Of a stretch of DNA of 64,000 nt, positions 1 through 48,034 are shown in pieces. Each line of letters begins with the position of its first letter. Position 1 is the first letter of the stretch. Below the pieces are notes generated by a model. That model was not told where the DNA came from. It saw only the letters and a program-made list of their open reading frames with translations, and did no database searches. The stretch spans positions 48,001 through 112,000 of the IMG/VR virus record IMGVR_UViG_3300020442_000011; one strand, given 5' to 3'. The position numbers and the translations under genes were made by a program. This DNA is from a virus.

Positions 1-44
1 CCATCAGTATGTCACCTATTTGTTTGCGCGCACCTAACGCGGAT
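1..44 (+). CDS. RNA polymerase beta' N-terminal half, exon 1 (partial)
   Basis: The frame beginning at base 3 reads to ...RAPNAD at 42-44 and continues, after removal of the intron at 45-434, as FDGDMLN. The junction recreates NADFDGD, the invariant magnesium-binding motif of multisubunit RNA polymerase beta' subunits. The 5' part of the gene lies outside the window. In phiKZ-like phages beta' is split into N and C halves, and the N half ends shortly after this motif, as here. Proximity to the beta C-half and beta' C-half genes suggests the non-virion enzyme (phiKZ gp55-like), but the virion homologue is not excluded. The motif is direct sequence evidence; the subunit assignment is inference. 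Confidence 0.85.
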
Positions 45-434
45 ACAGTGTACATAACACAGTTAGTGTGTTATGTGTAAGTCCCCTTTGTCAGTAATGG
101 CAATTGAAACACTTCTCTAATTGCTGGAATCCACTAAAGCTGTCTCACCACAATGTTACCTGAAAAGGTCAGTTAAAAAGCATGAAGGTTTAAAAACGAG
201 ACAGATGAGATCTACGGATCGAAATGGGTAATCAGCAGCGAAGCTCCTAAGGCGACAGCTATGGAGTGTGTCCAACGACTATCCCCGGCGGGGGAGTAGG
301 GTCCAAGTGGACTCGAAATGGGAAGGGTCCTTAGGAGTCATCTTAAGGATCGTAATATAGTCTCGACGTCTGGGGAAAGCCCAGAGCAGTGCTTAAGTGC
401 ACGGGTAGGACTAACGACCCTACTGAAGATCTCG
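45..434 (+). ncRNA. Group I intron without an open reading frame
   Basis: All core group I elements are present in order. A P-like segment AATTGCTGGAATCCAC starts near 119. Q is AATCAGCAGC at 230-239. R is GTCCAACGACTA near 270-281 and S is AATATAGTC near 354-362. R and S form P7 by pairing GACTAT with ATAGTC. The internal guide GTCC at 81-84 pairs with exon GGAT at 41-44, placing the required U.G pair at the 5' splice site; the P1 loop is a hairpin with arms ACATAACAC and GTGTTATGT. P9-type hairpins, one with a purine-rich loop, follow S. The intron ends with G at 434. It is 390 nt and carries no homing endonuclease. The core resembles subgroup IA introns of phages. Confidence 0.93.
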
Positions 435-632
435 TTCGATGGTGATATGTTGAATATGATTCTTATTCCGGATAATTATCTACGTGATGCGTTTGAGCGT
501 ATCTCACCCCATCTTTGGGTGTGGTCACTTGACAAACCACATGAAATATCCAACAACCTGACACTTCAAGGTCCTGTCATCGATACAGCGGTTAACTTCG
601 CGTCAATGACACAACCTGATATTGTCCACTAA
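435..632 (+). CDS. RNA polymerase beta' N-terminal half, exon 2
   Basis: The exon begins at TTC-GAT-GGT-GAT (FDGD) and encodes 65 residues ending ...MTQPDIVH before TAA at 630-632. Together with exon 1 it rebuilds NADFDGDMLN, where the aspartates chelate the catalytic magnesium. The frame is also open upstream into the intron (from ATG 318), but that stretch is intron core, so a start at 318 should not be annotated. The protein stops soon after the active-site motif because the remainder of beta' is a separate gene (13038-15032). The next gene starts 9 bases downstream. Confidence 0.88.
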   Translation, partial: FDGDMLNMILIPDNYLRDAFERISPHLWVWSLDKPHEISNNLTLQGPVIDTAVNFASMTQPDIVH

Positions 633-2226: not shown

Positions 2227-2801
2227 TGCCTGAACTCGAACCGACGGTAGGGAGTTGGCTCGAGGAGATCAATGACGAGGCTATCCGTCAGGAGCCTCGT
2301 ATCTCCGAATACCAATTCCAACGCGAAGTACTTACCCTACTCGAAAACCCGTTTGATGCTAATCACATTGATCGGTATAGTCGTTATGTAGGTGAGTTGA
2401 CAAAACCACTCAATGTCATGAGTAACGATAACCAAGGTGTTATCCTGTTTACGGTACCACCGCTTGTTTTCCCACCACGTCCAACGATTGCTGCAACCGG
2501 CGGTGTGACTGCTGAGAACTTGTTCTACCATCTTGAACGTTCCAAAGAGATCGGTGCGCGCGATATCAACGATCGGGTGACAGAATTCATGTTATCCATC
2601 ACTGGGTTCGGTAATCTCGTTAACGACGTTATCATGCCCATTCGCGAAATTCTTGCAAAATACGGTCGTAAGATGGTATCGATCCCTGGAATTGATACAC
2701 CACTACCCAACGGCGAACAAGTAAGCCCTACAGTGAGTGGTTCTACCGAAACCCCGGTTGCCAATAACCAGAGTAGTTTTACTGATGACTACGATGATTA
2801 G
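2226..2801 (+). CDS. Hypothetical protein with acidic C-terminal tip, 191 aa
   Basis: Start overlaps the preceding stop (TAATG). The folded part (about residues 1-160) has no recognised motif. The final 30 residues are Ser/Thr/Asn-rich and end SSFTDDYDD, an acidic aromatic tip like the partner-binding tails of SSB proteins. The gene overlaps the start of the SbcD-like nuclease, so it probably works with DNA metabolism genes. Role otherwise unknown. Confidence 0.85.
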   Translation: MPELEPTVGSWLEEINDEAIRQEPRISEYQFQREVLTLLENPFDANHIDRYSRYVGELTKPLNVMSNDNQGVILFTVPPLVFPPRPTIAATGGVTAENLFYHLERSKEIGARDINDRVTEFMLSITGFGNLVNDVIMPIREILAKYGRKMVSIPGIDTPLPNGEQVSPTVSGSTETPVANNQSSFTDDYDD

Positions 2802-3987
2802 TCCTGAAGTAAAAACAGACGGTCCACGGTCTAGCCTTTTTACAGAGGGTAAGATTGCGGGCCGTTTTCGTTTTGTGAGCGTGGGTGATATTCATCTTAA
2901 ACACCCACGCACTCCGACATCCCTCGTTCTTAACAATTTAACTAAGTATTGTGTTAACGATGCGGTGTTTAAAAACCTGGATATTTTTTTCATTACGGGC
3001 GATCTCTTCGACTCCTTGTTAATGAATAACGATCCACGTTTATATGAAATCCATCGATGGCTAACATATCTTCTTTACAAATGCGCTGAACACGATGTTC
3101 TTTTAAGGATCGTTGAGGGGACACCATCTCACGACCGAGAGCAATCAGTCTTCTTAACAGAACAAGCTGTTAACGCCAAGATCCCTGTTGATGTTCATTA
3201 CGCCACCACGTTGTCAATTGAATACGTGGAACGCTTTGGTATTCATATTCTTTATGTTCCAGACAAATGGCGAACAGAGACAACAGAAACATTAGGAGAA
3301 GTTAAACTCCTTTTAAAAGAAAAAGGTATCGATCAGGTTGACTTTGCTGTGATGCACGGCGCTTTCGAGTATCAACTTCCAGAAATCGTCCCTGAGCCAT
3401 CCCACGATAGTGAGGAATACCATCGCCTAGTAAAATGTTTTATTCTCATTGGACACGTTCATAAGGCATCTCAGAAGGGACGTATCTTAGCGGCGGGCAG
3501 TTTCGACCGTGACGGACATGGTAACGAAGAACCCAAAGGTTATTATGATGTCACTATATTCAGCAATGATGATTATCAGATAACATTTGTTGAGAATAAA
3601 GACGCTAAGAAATATGTAGGTGTTGATTGCGTCGGTCTTGATAGTCGTGAATCACTTATCAAGATTTCCAATCTAGTCTCTACACTGCCAAAAGGTAGTG
3701 CTGTAAAAATAAAGTGTTACGCAACAGATCCTATTTTTAAAGAATACAAGGATCTTCTTGAAGCATTCCCCTATATTGAATTTACCACCGACCGTCTTCG
3801 TGATACACGTGAAGAAGCCAAGGTCATGGAAGAACTCATGACGCTGGATTTCGATGTATTTAAAGACATCACACCTGAATCACTTCCAACGCTATTGATG
3901 GAAGAAGTCAACTCACTCACGTCGGACGAAAACCAACGTCGTCGATGTCTTGAGCTAATCGAGTCGGTGAACACATCAAACGCTTGA
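2794..3987 (+). CDS. SbcD/Mre11-like metallophosphoesterase
   Basis: A 397-residue calcineurin-type phosphoesterase. With the start at ATG 2794 the metal-binding motifs are GDIH (31-34), GDLFD (69-73), GTPSHD (109-114, in place of GNHD), MHGA (187-190) and GHVH (220-223), in family order. These ligate two metals for DNA exo/endonuclease activity in SbcD, Mre11 and T4 gp47. The usual GN of GNHD is altered to GTPSHD, but the histidine and aspartate remain. The frame is open from 2737, but the ATG inside the preceding stop region (8-base overlap) is the likely start. No SbcC/gp46 ATPase partner is present in the window. Likely role: processing phage or host DNA ends. Confidence 0.88.
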   Translation: MISPEVKTDGPRSSLFTEGKIAGRFRFVSVGDIHLKHPRTPTSLVLNNLTKYCVNDAVFKNLDIFFITGDLFDSLLMNNDPRLYEIHRWLTYLLYKCAEHDVLLRIVEGTPSHDREQSVFLTEQAVNAKIPVDVHYATTLSIEYVERFGIHILYVPDKWRTETTETLGEVKLLLKEKGIDQVDFAVMHGAFEYQLPEIVPEPSHDSEEYHRLVKCFILIGHVHKASQKGRILAAGSFDRDGHGNEEPKGYYDVTIFSNDDYQITFVENKDAKKYVGVDCVGLDSRESLIKISNLVSTLPKGSAVKIKCYATDPIFKEYKDLLEAFPYIEFTTDRLRDTREEAKVMEELMTLDFDVFKDITPESLPTLLMEEVNSLTSDENQRRRCLELIESVNTSNA

Positions 3988-3994
3988 GGTAGAC

Positions 3995-4831
3995 ATGACC
4001 GCTTACGTTCGTACATTGGGTGAGTATCCTATTTCAGTGGGTACGTCATTAGCTTTAGAAGGGTTCTTTAGAAAAGAACCTAATATTCGTCAGGAACGAA
4101 TCCGTACTGCTATCACCAAGTTGTGGGTAAACCTGGAAACAGTGGTTCGTAACGCAATTGAGGCGTATCCTTCTGATGACCTCAAGACACTGCCTTTAAA
4201 TGACGTTGTGGATTCAGTGTTTGAAGATGTGGAAGCCATTCAAACAACCATCCGCGACCAGTCGGAAGGTTCAGTAGCGTTGGTTCTGTTTTATGAAGAC
4301 CCTGAAGAACGTAAATGGTTATTCCCTCATGCCCAGTGGCGCGTCCCCACAACCGAACGTAAAAAACGTATTTCTCTTTTACATGACCTAGCAACACGTC
4401 AGGTATCGGGTATGATGCTTGAGAAGAAAATGCCGTTGAACATTATCAAACGGCGCCCACCTGTATCTCACGACCATGTAGCCATACTTACTCACCATAT
4501 CCATAATTTGTTCTGGGAACGATCCTTTGGTTATTTGGTCCTTCTAGAATCCTATACAGGTGCGTTAAAGGATGCCAACTTATGGTCAGGTAAAATGAAG
4601 GGCGTTGACGTTAGAGATCAGATGCCTTTTAATCCATTAACTCTTCAAATTTTAGGTGATGGTTCTTTATTCGCCGGTGAATCACGTGTCATTCAACGTG
4701 AGTTAAAAGTTCTTGCTAGAAACGCCAACTGGACGAAGGTTACTACAAGAGAACGCATATTGAATGACATTAGTCGTCAAGGTACGCCTGTTCTAAAAGA
4801 AGCGTACAACAAACTGATGAGTCGTCATTGA
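3995..4831 (+). CDS. Hypothetical protein, 278 aa
   Basis: Begins 7 bases after the nuclease gene, preceded by GAGG. Soluble and mixed alpha/beta, with several basic patches and a conserved-looking basic C-terminus (KLMSRH). No known motif was seen. Its position between the SbcD-like and SSB-like genes suggests a part in replication or recombination, by context only. Confidence 0.85.
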   Translation: MTAYVRTLGEYPISVGTSLALEGFFRKEPNIRQERIRTAITKLWVNLETVVRNAIEAYPSDDLKTLPLNDVVDSVFEDVEAIQTTIRDQSEGSVALVLFYEDPEERKWLFPHAQWRVPTTERKKRISLLHDLATRQVSGMMLEKKMPLNIIKRRPPVSHDHVAILTHHIHNLFWERSFGYLVLLESYTGALKDANLWSGKMKGVDVRDQMPFNPLTLQILGDGSLFAGESRVIQRELKVLARNANWTKVTTRERILNDISRQGTPVLKEAYNKLMSRH

Positions 4832-4902
4832 GATAAATTACGCTCAACAGTAATGCTGTAGAAAGCCAATGGTCTTCCAATCCGTTTTATAAGGGTCTTA
4901 TT

Positions 4903-5643
4903 ATGAGTAATTTCAACCGGCAAGGCAACAACGCTAACCGGAAACCAATTCCGCTAACCCAGTTTGATGTTTTTAGTAACTGGCTTTATGCTGATGCTCC
5001 TGTCGCCGGTGCACAGAAACCGGGCAACTTCCGTCTTAAAGTAATTGCTAACGTCCCACGCTTTATCGTTAAGACAAACGTCCCTGATGACAAGGACAAT
5101 GGACGTATCGAATTCCAGACGGATATTCCCACGTTCATGGCTGTGATTAAACTGGTTGAGGATCTAGCTGAAGGGCGCGAAGAAGGGTCGTTCACATTGG
5201 AATATAACGACCATGTCTTCGGCGCTGGTGGACAACGCAGTGAGAAGCCAGTTACTAAGGCATCCATCAAGATCGGTAAGGACAAAGAGAGCGGCCGTAT
5301 CTATATTGCCGTGCTCGGATACAATCGCCCGAAAATCCAGTTCTTCTTCGGACCGGCTAAGCGTCACGATCTTAAAGGTGGTGATGGTTCTGTTTTGGAT
5401 GCAGGCTTTGTAAGTCGTACCTATGCACGTGCCTGTGTTAAATCGTGGTCTGAGATGGCACTCAAGCTACTCAACGATAACTTCGATAAAGATGCGAAGA
5501 ACGTTGCTAAACCACCTGCACCCCCGCAAGGTCAAGGTGGTGGCAATGGCTATCAAGGCGGTGGTAACAACCAACGTCAACAAGCTGCATCCGCACCAGC
5601 GAACGTTGAGAGTTTCGACGATTTCGGTGATGACGCGTGGTAA
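4903..5643 (+). CDS. SSB-like single-strand DNA-binding protein (candidate)
   Basis: A 246-residue protein with a folded N-terminal domain of about 190 residues, then a flexible linker rich in Gly, Gln and Asn (PPQGQGGGNGYQGGG), ending in the acidic aromatic tip ESFDDFGDDAW. That architecture (core, Gly/Gln linker, acidic tip with aromatic residue) is typical of SSB proteins and their partner-recruiting tails. The core itself does not show an OB-fold signature I can identify by eye. AAGGG lies upstream of the ATG. It is followed by a strong hairpin. Confidence 0.6.
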   Translation: MSNFNRQGNNANRKPIPLTQFDVFSNWLYADAPVAGAQKPGNFRLKVIANVPRFIVKTNVPDDKDNGRIEFQTDIPTFMAVIKLVEDLAEGREEGSFTLEYNDHVFGAGGQRSEKPVTKASIKIGKDKESGRIYIAVLGYNRPKIQFFFGPAKRHDLKGGDGSVLDAGFVSRTYARACVKSWSEMALKLLNDNFDKDAKNVAKPPAPPQGQGGGNGYQGGGNNQRQQAASAPANVESFDDFGDDAW

Positions 5644-5694: not shown

Positions 5695-7335
5695 ATGAGT
5701 GCTAACAAAAATAAAACCTACATCATTGACGTGTGTCCCACACCAAATGGAGTTTCACCGCAGATGCGTTTTCTCATTTCTTCTCAGTCGGGTACTGGTT
5801 TTACTGAGGTTACAACCGAACATAACGGGCGTTCTCTCACCTGGGTGGTTAAGTTTTACACTAAGGTTCAGTTGACCGATCCTTCTGAAGTGTTCATGGG
5901 GATCAACCAATACCTGGAGACATTACCTGACGAAGTTCTCGATGCAATTTTTGAAATATATGTCGAGATGAAAGAAATCCTCGAGGAAACATATGAGGGT
6001 TCTGAAATGGTTATCCCTCTCCAAACATGCATCAAGCAGCTTTATTCGATGGTGCCGATGGAGAGCATCCGGAAGTGGATTATCTTTAACTATCCGGTTT
6101 ACATCCCCGAAATTCCAGATACTTTAACAGACCGTTACATGAATCGTGATGAGACCTATATCAAAGCAGATTACTTTGATCTGGTGGTGTTCTCTTTAGC
6201 GACACGTTTCATGATCCCGGTGTGGGGTGAGTACATCACACGAGGTGGTGCTGGAAATGGTGGGGAACTTTATAAAGAATTGGATGCACTGTCGCTCGTA
6301 AGCGGCACTGAAATGATGAAGTGGCCATTGGATAATGGTACACCTGGATCTCTACCTGCTCGCGATAAACTCATGCGTTATATCGAGATCAAAGCAGAAC
6401 GTAACACAACGTCCCTGGCGGATCTCTTTGGTGGGATGAGTTGTTTTGATATTCCAGCACGGCTATTGGCGACTGTAATCTTGCGTCGTTTAACGATAGT
6501 TCCTTTAACGCCCCAAGGGTCTGATGGGGAAGGAAAGAACATCGTTGCTAACCTTCACCACTATGTCGACCAACGTTTACGTCCCAATGATAAACGTGCG
6601 GGTTCTGTTAACCCTAAGATGAAAGACAGTGAAGGTGCTGATCCTGATGATAAAACATCAGTGGCTGAACAATATAAAATTCGCCAGAAGGTCTCTGATG
6701 GTGATATCATGGCGTTTCAAGTAGAAGCGCAAAGACAGCTTCTACTAGCAACCAAAGTAGATCCCTCTTTCGATCCAGTAATCTTGGATAAAGTCAATGA
6801 ATATCGACACGAATTTGACAATATCCACCTAAGCAATCATCAGCTGACACTGGCCCAGTGGGCCTTGGCAAAAGCATATCCACCCCGTGCATTTGAAGAT
6901 GTGGATATGAAAGCTATCAATAACCTGGTGGCAACTGCTCAGGCGTTATACTGGCATTGGGGACTATATGACATTGCCATCCTGATGACGGTGGAGAAGG
7001 TTCGATTCTCAGATGAGGATAGTCCAGGCTTATCACCTCTTGCAAAACCAACTTCAAGATTTAAAAATGAAATCCTTGAAGACTTCATGCAAGCATTCCC
7101 CCACTTCTTCCCGCAGTCGGGTAAGGATGCTAAGGATGTAAAAGGTAACGTTGCTTTCATCGGCGTATCTACCGTCCTGCAGGAAATGTTCGAAGCTAGC
7201 TGGTATTATCGGGGTAACCCTGAACTTTATGCGTTATCTTCGCAGAACCCAGATAGCCGTACGATCATCGTACAAACAACAATAAGACAGACGCTACATG
7301 CAGCTGTCATGAAAATCGTCTCATTGAACCAGTAA
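5695..7335 (+). CDS. Candidate fifth subunit of non-virion RNA polymerase (phiKZ gp68-like)
   Basis: A 546-residue, largely helical protein with no catalytic motif visible. In phiKZ the non-virion RNA polymerase has a fifth subunit, gp68, encoded three genes before the beta C-half. The present gene has about the right length (phiKZ gp68 is near 520 residues) and exactly that position: it is followed by two genes, then the beta C-half (10926) and beta' C-half (13038). The assignment rests on synteny and size, not on a sequence match I can verify. The start lacks a Shine-Dalgarno sequence and lies against a hairpin (5660-5690). Confidence 0.5.
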   Translation: MSANKNKTYIIDVCPTPNGVSPQMRFLISSQSGTGFTEVTTEHNGRSLTWVVKFYTKVQLTDPSEVFMGINQYLETLPDEVLDAIFEIYVEMKEILEETYEGSEMVIPLQTCIKQLYSMVPMESIRKWIIFNYPVYIPEIPDTLTDRYMNRDETYIKADYFDLVVFSLATRFMIPVWGEYITRGGAGNGGELYKELDALSLVSGTEMMKWPLDNGTPGSLPARDKLMRYIEIKAERNTTSLADLFGGMSCFDIPARLLATVILRRLTIVPLTPQGSDGEGKNIVANLHHYVDQRLRPNDKRAGSVNPKMKDSEGADPDDKTSVAEQYKIRQKVSDGDIMAFQVEAQRQLLLATKVDPSFDPVILDKVNEYRHEFDNIHLSNHQLTLAQWALAKAYPPRAFEDVDMKAINNLVATAQALYWHWGLYDIAILMTVEKVRFSDEDSPGLSPLAKPTSRFKNEILEDFMQAFPHFFPQSGKDAKDVKGNVAFIGVSTVLQEMFEASWYYRGNPELYALSSQNPDSRTIIVQTTIRQTLHAAVMKIVSLNQ

Positions 7336-47602: not shown

Positions 47603-48034
47603 ATGCGTTATTTTAAGTTTACCCATGATGCTCATGAGCTTAACAGTAGCATCCTATTTTCGTTGATGATCCAGGGTCAGCCAAATGGCCTTAACGATCT
47701 CAATGAACCATATCACCTCCAGCTGAACAATACGGTGTACACCATCATCCCGATGGATAATCCGATGTCTAAACGACATTCCTTCACGCAGTTCGGTCCC
47801 TATGTTGATGCCCACTATCATGATGGTAGTTTGATCGATCAAGAGGACATCAATAACGATGTCCTGGCCGCATTAACATTGCTGACAGGGAGGTGCAACT
47901 GGGTGGTGAATGGTGAGTTATGGAAACTACGCAGTCGCCGAGATGAATTCTTCAATGTGATGAGCGAAGTGAATACCGTGTTGACTTTCATTTCAGCTGT
48001 ACTTCTCATTACGTATCTCAAAACACGTAAATAA
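47603..48034 (+). CDS. Tail-anchored early membrane protein, 143 aa (paralogue 2)
   Basis: Starts 3 bases after paralogue 1. Same design: soluble domain, then C-terminal membrane segment (VLTFISAVLLITYL) and a short basic tail KTRK. Sequence identity with paralogue 1 is limited to several blocks, so the duplication is old or the pair diverged fast. It ends at a hairpin. Confidence 0.8.
   Translation: MRYFKFTHDAHELNSSILFSLMIQGQPNGLNDLNEPYHLQLNNTVYTIIPMDNPMSKRHSFTQFGPYVDAHYHDGSLIDQEDINNDVLAALTLLTGRCNWVVNGELWKLRSRRDEFFNVMSEVNTVLTFISAVLLITYLKTRK

Follow-up and report, generated by a model that had tools for sequence, protein, structure and literature searches.

The closest described counterpart of the locus analyzed here is phiKZ gene 55/56/56.1, which encodes the N-terminal half of the beta' subunit of the non-virion RNA polymerase (nvRNAP), the part that bears the catalytic DxDGD motif (PMC8287921). 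In phiKZ, this motif is interrupted by a 1372-nt insert that Rfam recognizes as a group I intron (75.6 bits) and that carries an HNH ORF (gp56), and the mature subunit is contiguous (PDB 7OGP). The annotated gp55 (420 aa, 47.9 kDa) reads into the insert and lacks the DFDGD motif, whereas joining across the intron gives a protein of 488 aa and 55.7 kDa, with DFDGD at 417. In the polymerase purified from phiKZ-infected cells, gp55 is listed at 56 kDa (PMC4666361), a value that may be partly a predicted mass, and structures of the enzyme put 417-DFDGD-421 in this subunit (PMC8287921; PMC7618050). Thus, the mass and structure of the native subunit fit the joined 488-aa form rather than the unspliced ORF, which supports splicing in phiKZ. 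A literature search returned no paper that names an intron at the gp55 site, although subscription journals were thinly covered, so that such absence is unproven; the 7OGP entry treats the chain as a fusion. The second pertinent system is the 1352-nt intron in the gene of the virion polymerase (vRNAP) beta subunit of PhiPA3 (gp211/gp210/gp209), which accommodates the HNH endonuclease gp210 in its P1 loop; this endonuclease nicks phiKZ gp178 (PMC11620839).

The window analyzed here is a stretch of 64,000 nt, positions 48,001 to 112,000 of the 112-kb metagenomic fragment IMGVR_UViG_3300020442_000011, and it opens in the same gene as the phiKZ insert, with the same catalytic motif interrupted. 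The interruption, window positions 45-434 on the + strand, is an ORF-less group I intron of 390 nt. Considering the sequence, the fold, the reading frame and the comparison with relatives together, we regard it as very likely that this element is self-splicing, is devoid of an endonuclease gene and lies between the codons for NAD and those for FDGD in the nvRNAP beta' N-half gene. The covariance model RF00028 (Intron_gpI) matches positions 46-386 of the + strand over its full length (50.7 bits, E 6.3e-10), barely over the gathering score of 50, and this is the sole match to reach threshold in an Rfam search of the window and of the 112-kb record. All relatives examined score higher (54-103 bits), but the core helices of the window intron are all intact. 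A sequence-only reading of this DNA had already described a 390-nt group I intron with P, Q, R and S elements, a P1 with a U.G pair and a terminal G; all of these were found and the length is exact, whereas the coordinates then given, 42-437, enclose the intron with one extra codon on each side. The 5' exon stops at PNAD with GAT at 42-44, the 3' exon opens with FDGD (TTC GAT GGT GAT, 435-446), U44 at the end of the 5' exon pairs with G81 and the last base of the intron is G434. As that reading had also stated, there is no endonuclease ORF inside the intron: stops occur in all three frames and the longest internal ORF has about 35 codons. An amino-acid insertion or an intein is ruled out by these stops together with the lack of any insert in uninterrupted homologues.

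When the exons are joined in frame (...APNAD plus FDGD...), the product has 491 aa and aligns over 483 residues with chain A of PDB 7OGP (E 6e-146), which was deposited as PHIKZ055 plus PHIKZ056.1; it is also collinear with the uninterrupted homologues from L025 (55%) and L060 (53%). By these comparisons the host gene is assigned to the nvRNAP beta' N-half, phiKZ gp55 family, with DxDGD, so that the proposed split of a beta' gene within its catalytic motif stands. The 5' exon could be followed into the upstream stretch of the record, where it spans G000:46767 to 48044 (window position 44) and ends in APNAD. A gene for a homologue of chimallin, the nuclear shell protein (L008:4678-6678; E 7e-78; 33% identity to phiKZ gp54), directly adjoins the interrupted beta' gene upstream, the same arrangement as in phiKZ, and the phage is therefore a nucleus-forming jumbo phage. 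Farther along the window, the ORF at 2737-3987 has, by reading alone, the look of a metallophosphoesterase or SbcD-type nuclease. Table 1 gives the coordinates of the exons and of the intron helices.

Table 1. Exons, intron and predicted helices of the interrupted beta' N-half gene, in window coordinates
Feature	Position	Strand	Basis or details
End of 5' exon	1-44	+	Codons ISMSPICLRAPNAD; upstream start at G000:46767; exon of 426 codons
P1	41-84	+	Exon GGAU (41-44) with internal guide GUCC (81-84); U44.G81 at splice site; extended by hairpin 49-60/68-79
Group I intron, 390 nt	45-434	+	RF00028, exon alignment, U44.G81, terminal G434
P2 hairpin (88-92/99-103)	88-103	+	Folding
P3 (112-117/320-325), enclosing P4-P6 and P7.1/P7.2	112-325	+	100% paired in 11 introns; double changes at 5 of 6 pairs
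P4 (122-127/232-237), with P5 (131-133/225-227) and P5a (140-146/198-204) inside	122-237	+	P4 100% paired
Small hairpin GAUC-UACG-GAUC, between P5a and P5	209-220	+	Alignment, fold
P6 (238-239/270-271), P6a (243-247/263-267)	238-271	+	Fold, alignment
P7 (277-281/358-362), guanosine-site helix, pseudoknotted with P3; P7.1 (283-286/291-294), P7.2 (299-304/309-314)	277-362	+	
P8 (328-335/342-349)	328-349	+	Fold, alignment
P9 (369-374/380-385), P9.1 (389-392/399-402), P9.2 (405-409/419-423)	369-423	+	Fold, alignment
Terminal intron guanosine (omega G)	434	+	Sequence
3' exon FDGDMLNM..., 65 codons and stop, end of beta' N-half	435-632	+	Reading frame, exon alignment

Multiple properties of the RNA support this assignment. 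None of 100 dinucleotide shuffles folds as well as the intron RNA (z -4.0), and when positions 36-110 (75 nt) are folded alone, P1 emerges unprompted, stacked on its hairpin, which occupies the place of the HNH ORF in relatives. The catalytic core from P3 to P8, with the P7 pseudoknot, has every pair present. In an alignment of 11 related introns (this one and ten relatives), P3, P4, P6 and P7 are paired in 11 of 11, with compensatory changes in P7 of L056; over the whole structure, double changes occur at 38 pairs (shuffles, 26.3) and 81% of the paired cells are complementary (shuffles, 72%), values that none of 500 shuffles reaches in either case, and shifting the partner by one base lowers pairing to 45-47%. 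P5a is paired in the window intron and fares poorly in the covariation count across relatives, which we attribute to misalignment of a variable region. None of the ten aligned relatives has the 18-nt stretch in which the small UACG-loop hairpin sits. Subgroup IA is defined by the presence of P7.1 and P7.2 between the 5' strand of P7 and the 3' strand of P3, and the two hairpins (283-294 and 299-314) lie there, which places the intron in IA, be it IA2 or another IA class. Exon pairing in P1 is limited to four pairs and that in P10 to two; the 5' splice site gains independent support from the distance between the guide G and the P element, which is 38 nt here and matches the 37-38 nt common to the introns of PhiPA3, 2050HW, Totoro, L056, L062, AVP1, L053 and L037.

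The sequence-only reading had taken these codons to be without a known intron and had cited phiKZ gp71-73 for introns in polymerase genes of the phiKZ group. However, gp71-73 correspond to a beta-like subunit rather than beta' (PMC8287921), and the site is not new: the same phosphodiester is occupied in six relatives, and the insert in phiKZ gene 55, with a core about 60% identical to that of the window intron, lies two codons upstream. The intron is thus real but is a further case of a known kind, with similar inserts at the same or neighboring codons of relatives. In a survey of cultured phages and 38 IMG/VR homologues, the latter collected by an alignment-based search (a plain single-protein search of IMG/VR matched nothing), the NADFDGD motif is uninterrupted in 29 of the 38 and interrupted in 9. 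Across relatives, the loop is broken at six codon boundaries: PN/AD (phiKZ, KTN4, T2P, Bobae), NG/DFDGD (Salmonella phages 1252 and JN03), NAD/FDGD (the window, L037, L053, L056, L059, L062 and Aeromonas phage AVP1), NADFD/GD (Vibrio Yong MS32), NADFDG/D (L037, L053, L057, L058, L051, Kodama, Miami) and NADFDGD/Q (PS119XW, OMKO1, fnug, PA7); a site further upstream, N/PTLQR, is used in KTN4, OMKO1, fnug, Bobae and L037. The 3' intron ends were placed in all cases except L051 and Miami. All insertions are in phase 0, and the codon before each ends in T, in keeping with a need for U as the last base of the exon.

AVP1, L056, L059, L062, L053 and L037 have an intron at exactly NAD/FDGD, or NAD/YDGD, in the same gene; three of these exceed 1 kb, namely L056 (ORF of 343 codons), AVP1 (ORF of 337 codons) and L059 (about 1.2 kb). 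The intron of Pseudomonas phage PS119XW is likewise ORF-less (362 nt) and resides in the same gene, but sits after NADFDGD and before QLN. Unlike the window, L053 and L037 possess a second intron 9 nt downstream, so that two tandem group I introns surround a 9-nt FDG exon (L053:5267-6011 and L037:6974-7696). The guide of the second intron can pair with 6 nt (L053) or 8 nt (L037) of this micro-exon. Genes of Bastillevirinae phages are reported to contain small exons between two group I introns and to display exon skipping (PMC11878797); by this precedent, the 9-nt exons are the extreme of a known arrangement. Among Salmonella phages, the beta' gene of SPN3US (L067) is uninterrupted, unlike those of 1252 (L022) and JN03 (L023), and the deposited beta' protein of 1252 reads into the intron. 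The vRNAP beta gene of L016, an IMG/VR contig, contains two group I introns with endonuclease-like ORFs overlapping or adjoining (6269-7288 and 3739-5019, - strand).

With respect to origin, identity to the window intron over the stretch that begins with P3 and includes the 3' end is highest for three vRNAP beta introns, those of PhiPA3, 2050HW and Totoro (69-70%), and amounts to 50-60% for the five aligned same-site introns. PhiPA3 is the nearest (70%): the last ten intron bases, GAAGATCTCG, are identical, its 5' exon also ends in GAU, the guide spacing is the same, and a scan of IMG/VR with a DNA pattern from the 3' domain returned the PhiPA3 copy only; a second DNA-pattern scan for the same intron elsewhere found nothing. 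We therefore put forward, tentatively and at somewhat short of even odds, that the intron moved ectopically into the beta' codons from the vRNAP beta gene, within the lineage of the PhiPA3 gp210 intron, rather than by same-site homing. Topology tests, conducted on the core plus the 3' domain because the core-only tree was poorly supported, reject a single clade of all same-site introns (AU p 0.0025), which implies that the NAD/FDGD site was filled more than once, and do not reject a clade of the window intron with the beta introns (p 0.57). However, the nodes of the tree are weakly supported, pairings of the window intron singly with the same-site intron of L056 or L037 are not rejected either (p 0.14 and 0.35), leaving the sister group ambiguous, and the tests give no direction of movement; the vRNAP beta lineage is accordingly the best, though not the sole, candidate relative. 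Homing from an allelic intron of another chimallivirus, with the help of an HNH endonuclease whose gene lies elsewhere or has since disappeared, is a serious and only slightly less favored possibility: six other phages share this insertion site, with introns longer than 1 kb in three of the six, and related introns hold an HNH ORF, gp210 in the case of PhiPA3, where the window intron has a bare hairpin, but the same-site introns are not one lineage, differ from the window intron by 40-50%, and no endonuclease was found in 112 kb. Specifically, the record yielded none of five Pfam families (HNH, HNH_3, NUMOD4, GIY-YIG and LAGLIDADG_3), no tblastn match to ten intron-endonuclease proteins of relatives and no vRNAP beta gene with an intron of its own. 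Genomes of related phages span 230-320 kb, so the record is probably less than half of the genome and a trans-acting enzyme could lie outside it.

A different reading altogether, that the insert is degenerate and does not splice, with two polypeptides made, the second from an ATG at 318 that shares the frame of the 3' exon, would fit the marginal RF00028 score and the frame that is open from 318 into that exon. We consider it highly improbable, given that the core helices are intact, with compensatory changes, that such a division would part the catalytic DFDGD from its barrel strand and that in the phiKZ homologue one chain spans the split point. The mature phiKZ subunit is consistent with splicing at the neighboring site, not at the site occupied in the window; for the window phage, we infer the splicing chemistry from the intron family and from this subunit. 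Under the favored reading, that of a spliced group I intron, the intron RNA would fold within the mRNA, an external guanosine would attack after U44, held by the U44.G81 pair of P1, the freed 5' exon would attack after G434, and the joined exons would encode NADFDGD; before splicing, no active polymerase subunit could form. Most likely, the intron is part of a lineage whose members move from one RNA polymerase gene to another in nucleus-forming phages, and the HNH endonuclease ORF of the P1 loop would have been lost from it, or never present.

The placement of the intron in conserved codons makes the idea of a safe haven, an argument usual for such introns (PMC12908238), a reasonable one, but the earlier contention that viable deletions or variants are unlikely goes too far in view of the uninterrupted majority in IMG/VR. 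One catalytic loop with six neighboring interrupted positions and more than one intron lineage is more informative than a single intron. We hypothesize, again at somewhat short of even odds, that the NADFDGD loop is a hot spot in which introns have settled repeatedly, by independent events at six boundaries, that lineages enter it from elsewhere, including vRNAP beta, and that the target is the catalytic residues and not a single homing site; if so, the two introns around a 9-nt exon would be an extreme form of this process. The loop provides a natural test of whether group I introns reach active-site codons by homing to a single site, or whether they insert ectopically time and again and are then subject to selection. 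Furthermore, in many jumbo phages, among them phiKZ, the gene call for beta' stops short at the catalytic motif. The polymerase responsible for middle and late transcription in such phages would rely on RNA splicing.
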